Part shown: positions 24,125-30,848 of the stretch, piece by piece
Position numbering within the stretch: position 1 is the first letter of the stretch
Layout: every line of letters begins with the position of its first letter
From: Leucobacter massiliensis
GTDB lineage: Bacteria; Actinomycetota; Actinomycetes; Actinomycetales; Microbacteriaceae
Assembly: GCF_002982315.1 (NCBI RefSeq)
Contig: NZ_MWZD01000013.1
Location: 248,001-312,000, forward strand
DNA length: 64,000 bases
Direction of reading: 5' to 3'
The notes under the pieces: model-generated
Database searches by the model: none
Told to the model about the DNA's origin: nothing
Seen by the model: the letters and a program-made list of their open reading frames with translations, nothing else
Program-made: the position numbers and the translations under genes

Positions 24125-24196
24125 GCGCGATTGGCGCAGCGGTAGCGCGCTTCCCTGACACGGAAGAGGTCACTGGTTCGATCCCAGTATCGCGCA
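24125..24196 (+). tRNA. tRNA-Val (anticodon GAC), integration target
   Basis: A 72-nt cloverleaf with acceptor GCGCGAT/ATCGCGC, anticodon loop CTGACAC (GAC) and T-loop GGTTCGATCCC. Its last 20 nt are part of the att site of the element that starts here, so the tRNA remains intact after integration. Confidence 0.96.
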
Positions 24197-24197
24197 C
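24177..24197 (+). other. Left attachment site (attL)
   Basis: 21 bp from TTCGATCCC through ATCGCGCAC, covering the T-arm and acceptor 3' strand of tRNA-Val(GAC), recur exactly at 30828-30848 with unrelated flanks. Confidence 0.92.
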
Positions 24198-24202
24198 AGA
24201 GA

Positions 24203-24232
24203 GAAACCCCTGGTAAACCAGGGGTTTTCTTC
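24203..24232 (+). terminator. Element-supplied terminator after tRNA-Val(GAC)
   Basis: A perfect 10-bp stem (24204-24213 with 24218-24227), loop TAAA, followed by TCTTCG. It lies inside the element just after attL. After attR no comparable hairpin is seen, so the element provides the terminator for the tRNA cluster it occupies. Confidence 0.85.
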
Positions 24233-24257
24233 GTTTCGGGGCACTGTTTGCAGCTCG

Positions 24258-24322
24258 CGTGGTACCTCCGTGGTACCCACGAATCGGGCGGGTGACCCTA
24301 GTTGCGCCAACAAGGGTCACCC
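24258..24322. promoter_or_regulatory. Left-end recombination sites of the element
   Basis: Two CGTGGTACC copies, 11 bp apart (24258-24266, 24269-24277), are followed by a palindrome at 24290-24322 (GGTGACCCTAGTTG, 3-nt centre, 13 of 14 pairing). The same two modules occur at the right end (30687-30756). They resemble arm-type integrase or excisionase sites. The assignment is inference from position and symmetry. Confidence 0.6.
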
Positions 24323-24484
24323 GGTAGCGTTGTCTTCAGGCGCTAACTCTCACCCCGCCGCCGCAAGGCGAGTAGGCCGCAAGGTTGACAGACTCAGGGT
24401 GACGCCTCTCGATAAAGTTCCGCTTGACCCCCAGAGACAGGCATCCAGGTAAAGGCTCCGGCCTTTTGCTCGAAGGATGCACTC

Positions 24485-24712
24485 GTGGCTACTGTCAAGA
24501 CTTCTCGGACCAAGGTCCGCACCGCTGATAGCGATCAGCTCACCCGCACGATCACGGACACCGCGACGCGGCTCGGTGTAAGCCACAAGACCGTCAGGCG
24601 GATGATCGACGAAGGCCGTCTGAAGACCGTTCGCCCTCTCGGCGCTGGTCGCGGCCGCCTGGTTCTCGTGACCGAGGACTCCATCCGGGCGCTGCTGGCA
24701 ACCGCCGCCTGA
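24485..24712 (+). CDS. Excisionase-like helix-turn-helix protein
   Basis: 75 aa from GTG at 24485, with GAAGGA 9 nt upstream. The centre reads DTATRLGVSHKTVRRMIDEGRL, a MerR-like/HTH_17 DNA-binding fold typical of excisionases and small regulators of actinobacterial integrative elements, ending with the wing-like GAGRGRLVLVTEDSIRALL. It is the first gene after attL, close to the left-end repeats, consistent with a role in excision or in control of rep. Confidence 0.75.
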   Translation: MATVKTSRTKVRTADSDQLTRTITDTATRLGVSHKTVRRMIDEGRLKTVRPLGAGRGRLVLVTEDSIRALLATAA

Positions 24713-24725
24713 CCCCCGCAAGAGC

Positions 24726-24743
24726 CGTCTCAACGAAGAGACG
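24726..24743 (+). other. Small hairpin upstream of rep
   Basis: CGTCTC/GAGACG with loop AACGAA lies 60 nt before the rep start. It could be a terminator for the excisionase gene or a nick-site hairpin; neither can be decided from sequence. Confidence 0.4.
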
Positions 24744-24802
24744 ACCCTCGCGGTATCCGGGCGTTGGCAGCGCACCGGGCGAGTGTCGTCAGAAAGATTC
24801 CT

Positions 24803-25489
24803 ATGACCAAGAATACCAGGGGCCCGCGATACGCGGGGTTCCGTCTGACTGTTCCCGCCGACCTCGCGACGCCCGCAGACGTGGCAGGCGTGCTCGATCC
24901 GCAGCGCACGGTGCACGACTACGCCGTCGGCCTGCACGACCGCGACAGCGCAGCGCCGCACACCCAGGGTGCCATGCTGTGCCCGACGCGGGTCGCGCTC
25001 CCCGAGATGCGTCGTCGGCTCTCGCGCGGTCTCGACCTCGCCGCCGATCTGATCGACCTCGACCCTCTGGTCGCCGGTCGCGGCAGGAGCGCGCGTGACG
25101 CCTTCCTCGGGTTCGTGTCGTACCTTCCGCACGACGACGCCGGGCGGAAGACGCGCGGCAAGGCGCTCTATTCCCGCGCCTCGATCCTCGTGTCCGATCC
25201 GGGCATCTGGGATCAGGTCGACAAGTGGCGCGAGCGCCAGGCCCGGGCCTCGAAGTTGGCTCGCCCCCTCGACGAGGCCGAGACGGTCGAGCTGATGCTC
25301 ATGTACGCGCACACCGACCCGGACACCGTCATGATGCGCGAGCCGCTGTTGTGGCGCGCGCCCGGTAACCGCGCCCGGTTCACGCGGGCGTACTCGGATC
25401 GCGCCGCCGCCATTCATGGCGGCGAGGACATCCCCGGTCATCTTTTCGACAGGATGCCCGCCGATCTGGTGGAGCGGCTGACCGCCTGA
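24803..25489 (+). CDS. Putative rolling-circle replication initiator (Rep_2/HUH type)
   Basis: 228 aa from ATG at 24803 (MTKNTRGPRYAGF); AGAAAG precedes it. Features align in order with RepB of the pMV158 class: a hydrophobic strand (YAGFRLTVP, residues 10-18), LHDRD (H45, D48), then APHTQG at residues 51-56 where the HUH metal motif falls, and FVSYLPHDD with candidate nucleophile Y107, matching YLTH of RepB. Here the second metal histidine appears to be Gln (H53-T-Q55), as in CRESS-virus HLQG. No helicase domain follows. Alternative: a different nicking enzyme. Confidence 0.62.
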   Translation: MTKNTRGPRYAGFRLTVPADLATPADVAGVLDPQRTVHDYAVGLHDRDSAAPHTQGAMLCPTRVALPEMRRRLSRGLDLAADLIDLDPLVAGRGRSARDAFLGFVSYLPHDDAGRKTRGKALYSRASILVSDPGIWDQVDKWRERQARASKLARPLDEAETVELMLMYAHTDPDTVMMREPLLWRAPGNRARFTRAYSDRAAAIHGGEDIPGHLFDRMPADLVERLTA

Positions 25490-25546
25490 CCTACCCCCGG
25501 CTCGCCGTCGGCGGGCCGATCACCACACAACGAGAGGAGCCACACC

Positions 25547-25849
25547 GTGGCATCGAAGACCAGCAAGGATTTGTTCGCCGAGGCCGCCTCGGCGCAGAAG
25601 GCAGCGAAGCTCGCGGAGGCCCGCGAGTACGAGGCGTTCGGGCGCGAGATCGCGAAGCGGTTCGCCCCGGGCGTGAGGGGCGCGACCGACGCTATCGCAG
25701 CGTCGCGGATCGCCCTGGACGGGGTGACCGTCCCCGACGATTCGGCAGGGACCGTCTCGAGCGATTCGCACGAGACGGTCCCCCCGGATTCGGACGACGA
25801 GACCGACGCGCAGCCGTCGTTCTCGTCGGGCGGCTGGAGTCGGCAGTGA
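25547..25849 (+). CDS. Small hypothetical protein of the element
   Basis: 100 aa from GTG at 25547 with GAGAGGAG upstream. The first half is an Ala/Lys/Glu-rich helix (SKDLFAEAASAQKAAKLAEA); the last 45 residues are Ser/Asp-rich and probably disordered. No recognised domain. Its place between rep and the relaxase, just before the candidate oriT, would fit a relaxase accessory protein, but this is position only. Confidence 0.6.
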   Translation: MASKTSKDLFAEAASAQKAAKLAEAREYEAFGREIAKRFAPGVRGATDAIAASRIALDGVTVPDDSAGTVSSDSHETVPPDSDDETDAQPSFSSGGWSRQ

Positions 25850-26219
25850 CGCTGCCGACCCCCACGGAGAGCCCGCGACAGTCAACAGGCTGTCGCGGTG
25901 CTCGACGTGCTACGCGCGCCGCAGACGAGGCCCCGGTGGGCTGTCGTCTGGGGTGTGCGTCGAGGCCCGCCAGGGCCGAGGAGCCCCGCAGGGCGACCGA
26001 GACACTTTGGAGCGCAGCGAAAAAGTGTCCTAGGTCGTTAATGACACTCTTAGGCGCCTGGGGTAGCGAAGCGCGGGCCCCCAGGTGAGTAAGGGTGTCG
26101 CGGCGGCGCAGCGGATGGGGTAGCGCAGCGAGGGGCCCCGTGCGATGTGACGACGCGCGACAGCACGCTTCCCGATGTACCGGGGAGCGAGATGGAGCAC
26201 GCGAACGAAAGGAACTGAA
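25850..26219. other. Non-coding region with nested repeats, candidate oriT
   Basis: 370 nt without a supported gene, directly upstream of the relaxase. It contains inverted repeats GACACTTT/AAAGTGTC (26001-26008, 26022-26029) and AGTGTC/GACACT (26024-26029, 26043-26048), CCTGGGG/CCCCAGG (26057-26063, 26079-26085), and 14-bp direct repeats GGGGTAGCGxAGCG (26060-26073, 26117-26130). Such clustered repeats upstream of a mob gene are typical of oriT. Confidence 0.5.
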
Positions 26220-27743
26220 GTGAGCAAAGCAGGTGCAGCAGTGGGCCGGGCGGCGTTCCGCGCGACCCACGCGAAGACGGGCGGGAAGTTCCCGCCGAAG
26301 AAGGGTTCGGCGGGCGCGCAGCCGCACGGATCGAACGAGGCGATCATCAAGGAGGCGCTGCGGTCGCTCGACCCCGAGCAGTCAAAGATCGAGGCGGCGA
26401 AGAACCCGAATATCGTGCTCGCGGATGAAGCGCTGAACGAGAACTGGGTAAACGACGGCAACGGCGGAATGAAGCCCGCGACCTCGTTCCAGGAAGCGCT
26501 CGACTACCTCGCCTCGCGCAACGCGCAGCTCTTCCGAAAGCAGACCGCGAACGACTACGAGCTGACCGAGATCGTCGTGCACCTGCCCGACAACCTCTGC
26601 ATCGACGACCCCGTCAACGTGAGCTACGTGCTCGACGAGAACGGCAAGCAGGTCATCAGCGAGAAGACCGGCCAGCCGCTCACGAAGCCGCGCCGCATCG
26701 CCCGTGATCCCGACGAGGCCCGCCGCTACTTCAACGACGCTCAGGAGTTCCTCACCGAGCACGGCATCGTCGCCGGAGGCCACGACGGTCTGCACTGGCG
26801 CACCGACCAGTACAGCGAGCACAGGCCGCACATGCAGCTCGGCTTCGACAGCTATGCGGTCGATCCGAAGCACCCCGGCTTCCTGCGTAACGAGTTCTCG
26901 CGCAAGTGGTTCTCGCACCGCGATGTCGTCTACCCCGACGGGCACCCGAAGGCAGGCAAGTCGGTCAGTGGCAAGGTCAAGCTCTCGGACTACCAGACCG
27001 CGATGCGCGAGCACATGATCGAACGCGGCTGGCCGGTCGAGGCCGAGATCGACAAGGCCAACGAGGGCTCCTACCTCGGCAAGAAGAACTACGCCCGCGC
27101 CGACAACAACAGGATCATCGCCGAAGACCGTCTGGCAGCCGCACGCGAGCAGGAAGACCAGAACGCCGTCGATCTGGCCGAGCTCGAAGAAGCCGACGCA
27201 GACCTCGAAGAGCGCACGCAGGACATTGCTCAGCGCGAGACCGACTGGCTGACTCGCAAGCGCAAGCTCGACGCACGAGAGGCGGATCTCGACCGGCGCG
27301 ACCAGGAGACCGCAGACGACCGTCTCGCGGCCCAGAACGAGCGCCGCGAGGCCGAGTCGCTCAACGCTGCGAAGCGGGCCGAGATCGCCCGCCTGCGCGC
27401 GCTGCGTGAGGATGTCGAGCGGGACCTTGCAGCCGCCGGACCCGCGCCGCAGCCGCCGAGTTATGACGATATGCGGGCCGAATTCCTCGGCGAGCAGTCG
27501 GCGCAGCTGACGGCGTTCGCGAAATCCCGGAAGCGCCCTGACGGCACGACGATGCTCGACGACTTCGAGGACTGGGCGCGTGCGAAGCACGCGAAGCTCA
27601 CCCGCCAGGGCCAGCCGGTCGGGAGGTACGAGACCTGGCGCGACCGCACCGCCGCCGCGCAGAAGAGGCTCACCATGGCGCAGCTCAACGATGCCCCTAT
27701 GCGCGCGTCTGAGCGAGACCGTGGGCACGGCTACGGGGAGTGA
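26220..27743 (+). CDS. Probable MOBV-type (Mob/Pre) relaxase
   Basis: 507 aa from GTG at 26220 (AAAGGA upstream). The order of features resembles MobM/Pre: an N-terminal region with a candidate metal-site His, a motif matching HxDExxPHxH at residues 195-208 (DQYSEHRPHMQLGF), then KLSDYQTAMREHMIERGWPVE, like the QDRFNEYVNQRGYDLE region of MobM. The terminal His of the HUH motif appears as Gln (H204-M-Q206). Residues about 310-420 form a charged coiled coil. It would nick oriT for transfer or recombination. Alternative: a divergent plasmid recombination protein. Confidence 0.62.
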   Translation: MSKAGAAVGRAAFRATHAKTGGKFPPKKGSAGAQPHGSNEAIIKEALRSLDPEQSKIEAAKNPNIVLADEALNENWVNDGNGGMKPATSFQEALDYLASRNAQLFRKQTANDYELTEIVVHLPDNLCIDDPVNVSYVLDENGKQVISEKTGQPLTKPRRIARDPDEARRYFNDAQEFLTEHGIVAGGHDGLHWRTDQYSEHRPHMQLGFDSYAVDPKHPGFLRNEFSRKWFSHRDVVYPDGHPKAGKSVSGKVKLSDYQTAMREHMIERGWPVEAEIDKANEGSYLGKKNYARADNNRIIAEDRLAAAREQEDQNAVDLAELEEADADLEERTQDIAQRETDWLTRKRKLDAREADLDRRDQETADDRLAAQNERREAESLNAAKRAEIARLRALREDVERDLAAAGPAPQPPSYDDMRAEFLGEQSAQLTAFAKSRKRPDGTTMLDDFEDWARAKHAKLTRQGQPVGRYETWRDRTAAAQKRLTMAQLNDAPMRASERDRGHGYGE

Positions 27744-27831
27744 TCAGCCCCGCCAATGTCGGGGGTGCTCGATAGTCTGAGAACAGACTTCACGAATTAA
27801 AAACACATAGCTCTACTCAGGAGGAAAACCA

Positions 27832-28830
27832 ATGCCCAAGTGGCTCTTCATCACGTCACTGATCGTACTGCCGCTCCTTTTCGGCGCGATTCACCCGATC
27901 CTGTTCTTCCTGGCTCTGGCCGGGGTCCTCATCGCGAACCCGCTCATTTGGAAGTACCGGAAGAACAAGTACTTCAACGGTGAGGAGTTCCAGGGGCTCC
28001 GCGCTCAGATCGCCTCGGTCGTCGCCGAGCACAACGAGGTCGTGAACTACGTCGCGGAGATTCGCGGCCAGGGTGCGTTCGAGCTGGGTGCATCGTCCAC
28101 CGGCCAGTACGCGCACCTCGCGAACTTCGAGAATACGTCGAACTGGAACTACCAGCGTGACCGCAACGTCGCCGAGTACGCGCCCCACGTTCACAACGCT
28201 TCGCTTCAGGTCGTGCGCAACGCGAGCATGGATCCGATCAAGTACCTGATGAAATACTTCGAGATCAAGGCGAACCAGGAGACGCTGGCCGATGTGCAGC
28301 GAGTGGCCGAGGACATCTCGCGGCTGGAGGAGGCCGTAGCGAACGTGCAGCGCCGCGAGGCTGAGATCGTCGCGATGATCAACCCGCCCGCGTTCATCCT
28401 CCAGCGGTACGCGGACGAGTTCTGGAGCCTCGTCGGCGTGCACCTCTCGCCGATCACGGTGCCGTACCCGAACTACAAGTTCCAGTACGTCTCCGCCGGT
28501 GGCAACAGCGGCCAGACGGTGAACATCAACCTGGATACCCCGACGCTCGACGCCCTTTCAGAGACGCTCGTTCAGAAGATTCGCTGGGCGAAGTCGGCTG
28601 CCGGTCAGCGCGCGCTGATGACCGCGCGCCTGCGCGGTTGGATCAAGGATCGTGACCGCCACACCTGCCAGAACCCCGCGTGCGGCGTCTCGGTCGCCGT
28701 CGAGCCGAACCTGCTCCTCGAAGTCGATCACATCATCCCCGTCTCCAAGGGCGGCCTTAGCGAGCCCGAGAACCTCCAGACGCTGTGCTGGCGTTGCAAC
28801 CGCACCAAGGGCGCAAAGATGCCCGCCTGA
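27832..28830 (+). CDS. Membrane-anchored HNH endonuclease-like protein
   Basis: 332 aa with a strong AGGAGG site. Two hydrophobic segments at the N-terminus (about residues 4-18 and 22-40) are followed by a basic WKYRKNKYF, a helical middle with coiled-coil character (about 150-185), and a C-terminal HNH fold: C-x4-C in CQNPACG, VDHIIPVSKGG (D299-H300), N-LQTLCWRCN and KG. The nuclease would sit on the cytoplasmic side if both segments span. It is the only gene of the element not obviously needed for its life cycle, so it may be cargo such as anti-phage or entry exclusion. Confidence 0.75.
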   Translation: MPKWLFITSLIVLPLLFGAIHPILFFLALAGVLIANPLIWKYRKNKYFNGEEFQGLRAQIASVVAEHNEVVNYVAEIRGQGAFELGASSTGQYAHLANFENTSNWNYQRDRNVAEYAPHVHNASLQVVRNASMDPIKYLMKYFEIKANQETLADVQRVAEDISRLEEAVANVQRREAEIVAMINPPAFILQRYADEFWSLVGVHLSPITVPYPNYKFQYVSAGGNSGQTVNINLDTPTLDALSETLVQKIRWAKSAAGQRALMTARLRGWIKDRDRHTCQNPACGVSVAVEPNLLLEVDHIIPVSKGGLSEPENLQTLCWRCNRTKGAKMPA

Positions 28831-28906
28831 CCCCGTATCCATCAGCCCGAGCACCTCATGGACGGGGAATCCCTCGCCCGTCAGGTGCTCGGCGTGGAAG
28901 GTGGCA

Positions 28907-29353
28907 TTACCCAGTTGTACCAGGCTGTACCCACTCGTGTACCCAGTTTGAGCCATCCTGCGGGTACAACGTGTTTGCTGGTATTTCAACAGATTTCGGG
29001 GCCGTGTACCCAGTTTCCGCTTGTACCCAGTCGAAACGACTTTTCTCCGCAGGGGCCGCAAGATCGCGATTTCTGCAAGATGACGGTACAAATCGGGAAC
29101 GTAGCGTTGAAACCTCACTGCGAGGGATCGCCGAAAGCACTCGTTTATCAGGGGAAACGCGCGTGCGCGCGCGCATGTGCGACTGTCAAGATCATGCACC
29201 GAGGATGTACCGTCATTTCTCTGTCCCCGAAAATGACGGTACACGCCGGTGCGGCCCCGTGACCGTTTTGCCGCGGAATCATGCGGATCTAGGCGGTTTC
29301 AAAATGTACCGTCATTTTGTACCGTCATTTTGCAGCTCAAAAATGACGGTACA
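28907..29353. repeat. TGTACC iteron array (two subfamilies)
   Basis: Twelve copies of TGTACC in either orientation. Subfamily A reads TGTACCCAGT or close (28926, 28938, 29005, 29022; variants at 28907, 28916 and reversed 28962). Subfamily B reads TGTACCGTCATTT: 29207, perfect tandem copies 29305-29317 and 29318-29330, and inverted copies ending at 29090, 29243 and 29353. The region is richer in A+T than its surroundings. It has no supported gene and probably is a replication origin or partition site. Confidence 0.85.
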
Positions 29354-29400
29354 TTTTGCGCAGTGCTGCCCGGCCCGGCGCGGCACCGTCGACATGACGG

Positions 29401-29431
29401 TGCCCCGCACCCGCGAAGCGGGGGCGGGGCA
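29401..29431 (-). terminator. Terminator of the integrase gene
   Basis: TGCCCCGC-A-CCCGC / GCGGG-G-GCGGGGCA, 13 pairs with one mismatch around a GAA loop, lies 37 nt past the integrase stop codon and before the iteron array. Confidence 0.7.
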
Positions 29432-29467
29432 CATGTCACAGACCCGCGCCGGGCCCGCGCCGACCGA

Positions 29468-30670
29468 TCAGCTCGCGCGCTGCTGGGCCATGCGGCGGGC
29501 CAGCTCGTCGTCGCGGTTCCCGCTGTGCTGGTAGCGGATCGCCGCCTTCATAGAAGAGTGCCCGAGGCGGTCCATCGTCTCCTTGGCCGTCGCGCCGGTC
29601 TGCGCGTAGCGGGTGCCCGCGAAGTGCCGGAGCGCGTGGAACGGCAGGTCGGGCCGTCCGGCGGCGACGACGGCCTTGTGCCAGTGCCGCCAGAACGCGC
29701 TCTGCGGCAGCCAGCCGGTGCCGTCGTGGTTGGTGGTCAGCAGGGCATCGCCGATCTTCCCGTGGGCCTGATTGGCGATGATGCGGGCGTCCCTGCCGAA
29801 TACGGCCACGGTGCGCACGCCTGCGAGAGTCTTGGGCTCGCCGACGTCGCGCCCGGTCTTCTTCGTGTGGATGACCTGGCGCGAGACGCTGATGCGCACG
29901 CAGTCCACGTCACCGGCCTTGTCGCGCTCGACCACCACGTCCTTCGCGCGAAGCTCGGTCGCCTCGCCCCAGCGCAGCCCGGCGGTGGCGGCGATCACGA
30001 CCAGGGCCTTGTACCGCTTGTCGATGCTCGACAGGATGACGTCCAGCTCCGCATCGGTCGGCGGCTCGACCCTCTTGCCGGTCGAGGCCGTCGAACCGCC
30101 CCTGATCTGGCAGGGGTTCTTATCGAGGATGCCGTCGTCCACGGCGGTCTTGAGCACCGACTTCATGAACTCGTAGGCGCGGGAGGTCTGCGAGACACGG
30201 CCGGTCTCGATCTTCGCGGCGCGCCACTCACGCACCATCTCGGGCGTGATCTCGCCGAGCTTGCGCCCGACCATATCGGCGAGCGGCCCGCCCTTACCCG
30301 TCTTGTCCTTCTTGGTGGTCACGCCCGCCGGGCGCACGTACCCCTCGTAGCTCTCGATCGTGCGCGGGCGCAGCGCCTCGCCCCGGGAGTTCGTGCGGGT
30401 CTTGATCCACTGCGCGGCGTACTCGCCCAGCGTCACGTCGCGGCGGGCGGCCTCGGCTGCAGCGCGCTGCTGCTCGGCGGCGGCGACTGCGGGGGGCCGC
30501 CAGGTTCCCGAGTTGATCTCGGACTGGCGATCCGCCAGCCAGGCGCGAGCCGCGCCCTTGGTCTTGTAGGTGCCGGGGGCGGGATAGCGCTTCTTGTCGG
30601 GGCCGGTGTAGCGGGCCCGGTAGTTGCCGCTGGGCAACTTGTCGATGATTCCGAACTTCTCGCGAGACAT
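29468..30670 (-). CDS. int: Tyrosine-type site-specific integrase
   Basis: 400 aa. An N-terminal arm-binding domain (about residues 5-55, GNYRARYTGPDKKRYP), a SAM-like core-binding domain (about 75-175), and the catalytic domain with Arg in GLRWGEATEL, H-x2-R in HALRHFAGTR, LGHSS and nucleophile Tyr in AAIRYQHSG. ATG at 30670 with GGAGG upstream. It lies next to attR and reads away from it, with CGTGGTACC sites in its promoter region, so Int may repress itself. Confidence 0.94.
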   Translation of the reverse strand: MSREKFGIIDKLPSGNYRARYTGPDKKRYPAPGTYKTKGAARAWLADRQSEINSGTWRPPAVAAAEQQRAAAEAARRDVTLGEYAAQWIKTRTNSRGEALRPRTIESYEGYVRPAGVTTKKDKTGKGGPLADMVGRKLGEITPEMVREWRAAKIETGRVSQTSRAYEFMKSVLKTAVDDGILDKNPCQIRGGSTASTGKRVEPPTDAELDVILSSIDKRYKALVVIAATAGLRWGEATELRAKDVVVERDKAGDVDCVRISVSRQVIHTKKTGRDVGEPKTLAGVRTVAVFGRDARIIANQAHGKIGDALLTTNHDGTGWLPQSAFWRHWHKAVVAAGRPDLPFHALRHFAGTRYAQTGATAKETMDRLGHSSMKAAIRYQHSGNRDDELARRMAQQRAS

Positions 30671-30686
30671 AGATCAGCCTCCGTTT

Positions 30687-30756
30687 CGTGGTACCTGCGT
30701 GGTACTCAACTAGGGGTTTCTGGGTACTTCTTGACCTTAGTTGACTCAACCAAGGT
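30687..30756. promoter_or_regulatory. Right-end recombination sites of the element
   Basis: CGTGGTACC and CGTGGTACT, 11 bp apart (30687-30695, 30698-30706), then a palindrome ACCTTAGTTGA-C-TCAACCAAGGT (30734-30756, 10 of 11 pairing). The core ACCxTAGTTG/CAACxAxGGT is shared with the left-end palindrome at 24290-24322. A further CTAAC-AC-GTTAG palindrome lies at 30812-30823. Apart from the attR copy, 30671-30931 holds no gene. Confidence 0.6.
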
Positions 30757-30827
30757 TCGAGTACATCCCTTGATAACAAAGGGATCGGGGCTGATTTTGA
30801 GCTGTTTCTATCCTAACACGTTAGTTA

Positions 30828-30848
30828 TTCGATCCCAGTATCGCGCAC
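30828..30848 (+). other. Right attachment site (attR)
   Basis: Exact 21-bp copy of the 3' end of tRNA-Val(GAC) as at 24177-24197; the sequence before it (TTAGTTA) belongs to the element and the sequence after it is chromosome. Confidence 0.92.

Follow-up and report, generated by a model that had tools for sequence, protein, structure and literature searches.

What kind of mobile DNA occupies the 3' end of a tRNA-Val gene in Leucobacter massiliensis? The gene lies in a 64-kb stretch of contig NZ_MWZD01000013.1 (the window: all 64,000 nucleotides analysed, with positions counted from the first letter), and an earlier note, made from the letters alone, had described the 6.65-kb DNA inserted there as a compact element combining a rolling-circle Rep, a relaxase and a membrane HNH protein. 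Our analysis indicates that this DNA is very probably an integrative and mobilizable element (IME) of Leucobacter, whose biochemical steps we infer from its parts.

Results

The target gene, tRNA-Val(GAC), follows tRNA-Gly and tRNA-Cys ahead of the element, and its last 21 bp, TTCGATCCCAGTATCGCGCAC, recur 6651 bp downstream (start to start), the + strand of the window having these two copies and no other. The earlier note was right that these att repeats are exact, and it listed correctly the six genes within 6.65 kb and their coordinates: xis, rep, orf3, mob and hnh on the + strand and int on the - strand (Table 1). The tyrosine integrase that it proposed is borne out by PF00589 and phrog_1, and Int shares 77-80% identity with its counterparts in three of the compared loci (L074, L075 and L076; such labels denote loci throughout). 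Xis scores 39.2 bits with HTH_17 (helix-turn-helix, HTH; cut-off 27) and 32.5 bits with excisionase TIGR01764 (cut-off 28.8). The element has its own integrase and att sites and, as expected of an IME, its own relaxase without genes for a type IV secretion system (T4SS), the relaxase being recognised by fold only and the origin of transfer (oriT) being predicted. No T4SS profile was among the matches of the six element proteins, though no search aimed at a full T4SS was made.

Two checks proposed beforehand turned out negative and weigh against this reading. Among the matches listed from 54 genomes of the genus, none was an empty site sharing the right flank of the element; in these matches the joined flanks cross the junction by at most a few bases, and DNA resembling the right flank matched at other places in some genomes. 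Nor did the plasmid collection yield a free plasmid form, either by DNA search or by tblastn of Mob, Rep and the L076 Rep; its DNA matches were two records that coincide with the HNH gene and span 12-15% of the query. A phage collection gave one record, limited to the HNH region. We consider it most improbable that the element is a phage satellite that relies on packaging by a helper phage and not on conjugative mobilisation. Its int-xis-rep layout and small size would suit a satellite, and a relative of the HNH protein occurs in a prophage, but the resemblances of Xis to the terminase small subunit phrog_57 (E 3.9e-5) and of the HNH protein to phrog_4581 (E 1.6e-4) are exceeded on the same stretches by those to phrog_66, an excisionase family (E 1.7e-6), and to families of HNH proteins (E 3.6e-13), and we therefore read them as shared HTH and HNH domains. 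The PHROG matches listed for the six proteins include no capsid family, and the element has a relaxase fold and oriT-like hairpins instead.

Mob has the MOBV (MobM-like) relaxase fold and is a relaxase by fold only. The earlier call of a MOBV-like relaxase stands as regards fold similarity and fails as regards PF01076, to which Mob has no match, as it reaches no Pfam cut-off at all. Its relatives L031 and L032 pass that of PF01076 (32.6 and 39.5 bits against a cut-off of 25.5), and a profile that includes both (A2) finds MobM among PDB sequences at E 2.9e-5. Besides the absent PF01076 match, several results speak against the assignment: the best Foldseek hit has E 5.6e-3, with none at E 0.001; comparison of the profile of Mobs of the window's type with one of plasmid MobV proteins gave a probability of 69.5 only; and a profile of window-type Mobs without L031 and L032 (A3) did not find MobM among the PDB sequences. 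The window Mob itself matched a coiled coil only in that set and no pattern in viral contigs, and mob and orf3 had chance-level profile matches only (best E 0.005 for mob; E 0.33). Mob relatives occur in 9 of 199 genomes, by profile in 6 of 54 genus genomes, and in 4 of 396 order genomes, two of them weak, each count including the own genome; a further relative is in Rothia santali.

The active site is where Mob departs from its family. The HxxR histidine, which we take to be the nucleophile position of MobM, is Glu in 8/8 window-type rows and His in 7/7 canonical rows of our alignment, in which L024 is present as an N-terminal fragment only and L030 is left out. MOBV relaxases are described as having three metal-binding histidines, the 3H motif (PMC5313138); the window Mob has Q197, H204 and Q206 at these positions, two histidines being replaced and Glu200 kept, and ligand 1 is N/Q and ligand 3 is Q in 7/7 window-type rows each. 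These replacements count against our reading of the element as an IME, as do a stop in the mob of L024, the mob of L030 lying in pieces, and a whole-gene ratio of nonsynonymous to synonymous substitution (dN/dS) of up to 0.601 in one pair. Window-type Mobs might be relaxase-derived DNA-binding proteins that no longer nick, in an element that integrates and replicates and whose transfer is lost or depends on the relaxase of another element in trans. In favour of this, besides the replaced residues, is the presence of another element, L023, in the own genome; L076, a relative of L023, encodes MobC together with a PF03432-like relaxase that falls slightly short of the cut-off. We regard this explanation as rather unlikely, because the N-terminal domain is under purifying selection among relatives (dN/dS 0.18-0.32 in 3 pairs), Arg48 is kept in 15/15 rows and Glu200 and His204 in 14/14, the arms of oriT-like hairpin A have changed in step, and Gln is found as ligand 3 even in L032, where HxxR is intact.

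It is possible, and we suggest it tentatively, that window-type Mobs are still active as MOBV-fold relaxases and cut DNA without the HxxR histidine, by way of Glu45 or of another conserved residue such as Tyr96, and with a one-histidine metal site. Position 96 is Tyr in 7/8 window-type rows (Ser in the L024 fragment) and Phe, Leu or a gap in the 7 canonical ones. If true, HUH relaxases would have a catalytic variant not described so far, and a family of actinobacterial IMEs would carry it.

Directly 5' of mob stand two hairpins that resemble a MOBV-type oriT; as such a prediction, hairpin A is well supported and hairpin B less so. A MOBV-type oriT is expected to have hairpins that exclude one another and a nick at the 3' end of the stem. 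In a sequence-only alignment of seven elements, hairpin A has two-sided changes in 7/8 pairs and 84.0% of its cells paired; the corresponding values for hairpin B are 6/10 and 52.2%, the latter a point against it. Taken together, A and B reach a covariation score of 0.399 against 0.207 when shuffled and pairing in 65.8% of 117 cells against 50.6 (0/500 shuffles in both cases). Their covariation is the highest of seven slides, slides -2 and -3 following with 0.328 and 0.302 (59.0 and 56.8% paired), and further pair types are no more numerous than in shuffles (203/500). The arms of hairpin A in seven elements pair at 7.43 of 8 positions with their own partners and at 4.29 crosswise, and those of hairpin B in six elements at 9.5 of 10 and 5.83; the observed order alone reaches its total among all 5040 and 720 orders, respectively. 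Choosing the arms from the folds of the individual elements biases these tests towards own pairing, and for this reason the sequence-only alignment was added. L026 (arms identical to L029) was left out for hairpin A, L025 (identical to L027) from the arm tests, and L031 and L032 from hairpin B.

Hairpin A is also present in L031 and L032, both with HxxR intact; its loop reads GAGCG(C/G)AGCG in 7/9 elements and differs in L025/L027. In L047 and L078, no such hairpin is among the four best in the 450 bp 5' of mob. The block just upstream of hairpin A has wider matches of 73-83% in L026, L028, L029 and L031. The oriT of plasmid pMV158 is described as three overlapping repeats, of which inverted repeat 3 (IR3) has a 12-bp stem, a 3-nt right-arm bulge and a nick at its 3' end (PMC5863519), and by this analogy the nick would lie near 26037/26038. 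In a non-canonical IME, Rep would act as both replication initiator and relaxase, with Mob as an accessory, as has been proposed for Rep_2-type proteins of streptococcal IMEs. Among 144 such IMEs, a review (PMC5704250) counts 35 whose putative relaxase is of the Rep_2 type, and 15 more in which it also contains a helicase domain, but the present element encodes a separate MOBV-fold protein directly behind the hairpin pair, and we give this alternative little credence.

Rep is probably a remote relative of Rep_2/Rep_OBD proteins. An hhalign comparison of five Reps with six Rep_OBD-type proteins gave a probability of 90.2 and E 1.5e-6 (0.2 for the reversed control) over 100 columns around YLxH, a range that leaves the HDRD..PHTQG part outside. 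The stretches HDRD..PHTQG and YLPH..ALY presumably correspond to those of Rep_2 proteins, HDxD, HxH and YLxH..Y being, as we take it, the RepB motifs; all three are visible in the L119-L121 stretches of the Rep_OBD alignment, and the Rep motif reads PHxQ, not PHxH. The Rep_2-like initiator of the earlier note therefore holds as a probable remote relationship and not by PF01719, which gave no match above cut-off for Rep and none in the own genome. Also unfavourable are the lack of matches of Rep in Pfam (cut-off unmet), PHROG and NCBIfam and a single-sequence structure model too poor to use (pLDDT 37.7). Rep and profile A4 had no match among PDB sequences, and their 3 and 83 stretches in viral contigs include no relative. 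Relatives of Rep were found in 4/398 family genomes, own included.

The iterons of the earlier note are real. Six copies of AATGACGGTACA (at most 1 mismatch) occur in the window, all inside the iteron tract, against 0.02 expected, a number reached in 0/100 shuffles. A second repeat, GTGTACCCAGTT, has 3 of its 5 window matches (at most 2 mismatches; whole-window expectation 0.84) at 28937-29032, and no shuffle reached five. At the corresponding place L023, L075 and L076, which have another Rep type, carry six AAAGGGTGTACGC repeats each, some with a mismatch. The long hairpin adjoining the iterons (29360-29470 folds with a free energy of -44.5, z -4.5) is kept in the seven loci that match, with 80-93% identity in 6 other loci; its covariation is weak (two-sided change in 3/33 pairs). 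As the adjoining iterons follow the Rep type, we reassigned this hairpin from candidate single-strand origin to candidate double-strand origin. Iterons specific to the Rep type next to a common hairpin fit a double-strand origin or, alternatively, a single-strand origin. The conserved block before rep is 83-93% identical in L023, L031, L075 and L076, and alone has a weak fold (z -1.63), with two-sided change in 1/34 predicted pairs.

Related att-flanked elements occupy tRNA-Met in L023 (own genome, 39 bp) and L031 (38 bp), tRNA-Ser in L029 (61 bp) and tRNA-Val(GAC) in L024, L075 and L076, the last three ending in the same 21-bp core as the window. Related tRNA-integrated elements, a search for which the earlier note had proposed, exist; L075 and L076 combine the window's integrase type with another Rep type. 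L031, from another genus, resembles the window in rep (82%), orf3 (80%) and 650 bp of non-coding DNA (84%) and differs in integrase, Xis and target. With the loci read as circles, we interpret these patterns as exchange of int-att-xis as a block between the conserved stretches 29367-29478 and 24704-24817. The mobilisation module is swapped too: L075 and L076 have NikA/MobC-type proteins above cut-offs and a PF03432-type relaxase, above the cut-off in L075 and just under it in L076.

Several observations accompany this family. L023 (5834-15108) is a second member in the own genome, of about 9.2 kb, in tRNA-Met and with the other Rep type. In L025/L027 and L026, modules related to that of mob are accompanied by different replication proteins. 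That of L025 is of the D5_N primase type; that of L026, which lies near a serine recombinase, matches Rep_OBD and RNA_helicase below threshold. At the DNA level, the coiled-coil-like C-terminal region of mob shares 83% identity with L031 (27171-27401) and 77% with L030 (27236-27696), while the relaxase domain of L031 is very different, which makes the gene itself a mosaic. In 13/54 Leucobacter genomes, tandem exact copies of the att core lie less than 200 bp apart 3' of tRNA-Val(GAC) (L090, L092, L097, L098, L099, L107 and L109, also L024 and L075). Units measure 110-145 bp and begin with the 21-bp core; in most of them a terminator-like hairpin comes next, and a two-stem hairpin precedes the following core. 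In seven units with arms picked by eye, the stems differ and pair fully except in L107 (outer 9/10) and L024 (inner 7/8). No Rfam family besides tRNA was above cut-off in the 5 loci searched. The units may be tandem att targets or relics.

The hnh gene seems to occupy a cargo slot, because tblastn found no match to it in the 17 loci compared and because in L031 the conserved block after the slot follows mob at about 630 bp. Relatives of its product are encoded on an Arthrobacter plasmid, a Rhodococcus plasmid and in a mycobacterial prophage. The label membrane HNH protein is supported by PF01844 and the hydrophobic N-terminus, which would be a membrane anchor. PADLOC returned 10 families for it, all over the HNH stretch, and none for Mob, orf3 or Rep.

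The word GCGNAGC is strand-biased inside the element (24198-30827), with 20 occurrences on the + strand and 4 on the - strand (69 and 96 in the flanks). Mini-hairpins of this word were dropped as origin marks, with 5/24 words at stable-hairpin tips in the element and 18/165 in the flanks; an Rfam match to HgcC at 25338 scored under its gathering score.

Table 1. Features of the element and its target, by position in the window
Feature	Position	Strand	Basis
tRNA-Val(GAC), integration target	24125-24197	+	ARAGORN; Rfam tRNA 68.9 bits
att core, left copy (3' end of tRNA-Val(GAC))	24177-24197	+	exact 21-bp repeat TTCGATCCCAGTATCGCGCAC
xis, HTH_17/excisionase-type protein	24485-24712	+	profile matches
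conserved block before rep, seam of module exchange; possible single-strand origin or rep leader	24704-24817	+	conservation
rep, probable remote Rep_2/Rep_OBD-type rolling-circle initiator	24803-25489	+	motifs; hhalign
orf3, 100 aa, travels with rep/oriT	25547-25849	+	80% in L031, 87% in L026
conserved DNA just 5' of oriT-like hairpins	25888-25994	+	88.8% in L025/L027
oriT-like hairpin A, loop GAGCGCAGCGA	25996-26035	+	folding; covariation; arm permutation
predicted nick site GGTCG^TTAATGACAC	26037-26038	+	analogy with pMV158
oriT-like hairpin B	26043-26099	+	folding; arm permutation
mob, MOBV-fold relaxase domain and coiled-coil-like C-terminus; E45 at HxxR histidine place	26220-27743	+	
hnh cargo, HNH protein with hydrophobic N-terminus	27832-28830	+	PF01844 48.2 bits (cut-off 21.4)
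conserved terminator-like hairpin after cargo slot	28840-28896	+	z -4.19; 79-81% in L026, L028, L031
six iterons AATGACGGTACA, candidate Rep-binding sites	29079-29353	3 direct + 3 inverted	repeat scan
long hairpin, candidate nick hairpin of double-strand origin (or single-strand origin)	29368-29460	+	folding, conservation
int, tyrosine integrase	29468-30670	-	PF00589 53.7 bits; phrog_1 178.9 bits
att core, right copy	30828-30848	+	exact 21-bp repeat TTCGATCCCAGTATCGCGCAC

Discussion

The sequence parts, fold similarity, within-element pairing and module exchange observed here suggest how the element may move. With help from Xis, Int would insert the element at the 3' end of tRNA-Val(GAC), and remove it again, by recombination at the 21-bp att core, and the excised circle would be copied by rolling-circle replication, with Rep binding the six iterons and nicking the adjoining hairpin. 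For transfer, the MOBV-fold relaxase would nick at hairpin A and be guided out of the cell by a coupling protein and a T4SS that a conjugative element in the same host supplies. Coupling-protein genes are present in the own genome on contigs C3, C11 and C10, and these loci are possible helpers. The HNH protein would travel as cargo. Four features described here go beyond the earlier note: the oriT-like hairpins, the correspondence between iterons and Rep type, the exchange of modules and the changed catalytic residues of Mob.

The unusual point is a Mob with the fold of a known family and without that family's usual catalytic residue, and the clade to which it belongs offers a direct test of the cutting residue where the MobV histidine is missing. 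Since Rep and Mob went unseen by the profile libraries used, tools built on such libraries could miss these elements. No Leucobacter IME of this kind was found among titles of open-licence papers; a Leucobacter paper describes MOBF and MOBP1 relaxases (PMC6868719), unlike the Mob of the element.

How does the element compare with known systems? Actinobacterial integrative and conjugative elements (AICEs) such as pSAM2 also integrate into tRNA genes with Int and Xis and bring their own replication protein, but they move double-stranded DNA by an FtsK-like TraB, and no FtsK/TraB-type profile was among the matches listed for the six element proteins. Closer in logic is class 10 of the streptococcal IMEs, which combines a tyrosine integrase, a rolling-circle replication (RCR) protein of the MobT type and MobV in one IME (10/144 IMEs; PMC5357655). 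As far as the published description allows comparison, class 10 differs in its Rep_trans/MobT RCR protein, an extra RepA_N-domain protein and its Firmicutes hosts. ATE-1 of Trueperella pyogenes, compared likewise by description, is an actinobacterial IME with a MobV relaxase and the sole actinobacterial canonical IME in a 2017 review (PMC5704250). Because that review has this one example, small mosaic IMEs in Leucobacter and its relatives would fill a gap in what is known of gene exchange in such bacteria.

The plasmid pMV158 (RepB, Rep_2; MobM, MOBV1) resembles the element in its initiator, which in the element is probably Rep_2-like, in a MOBV-fold relaxase and in a hairpin-bearing oriT before mob, which in the element is predicted. 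The right arm of hairpin A has a bulge of 3 nt in L025/L027, L028 and L031, as described for IR3, and of 4 nt in L026/L029, whereas the folds of the window and L024 have no bulge and L032 has a 2x4 internal loop. The element also differs in being integrated in a tRNA gene with Int and Xis, in its high-GC actinobacterial host, in the altered catalytic residues of Mob and in the PHxQ of Rep instead of PHxH. The combination that had been called uncommon may be rare for Actinobacteria, but the same logic is found in IME class 10 (PMC5357655) and pMV158 (PMC5863519) as described. The kind of element is already known; as far as literature titles show, what is new is the actinobacterial family, its mosaic build and its clade of altered relaxases.

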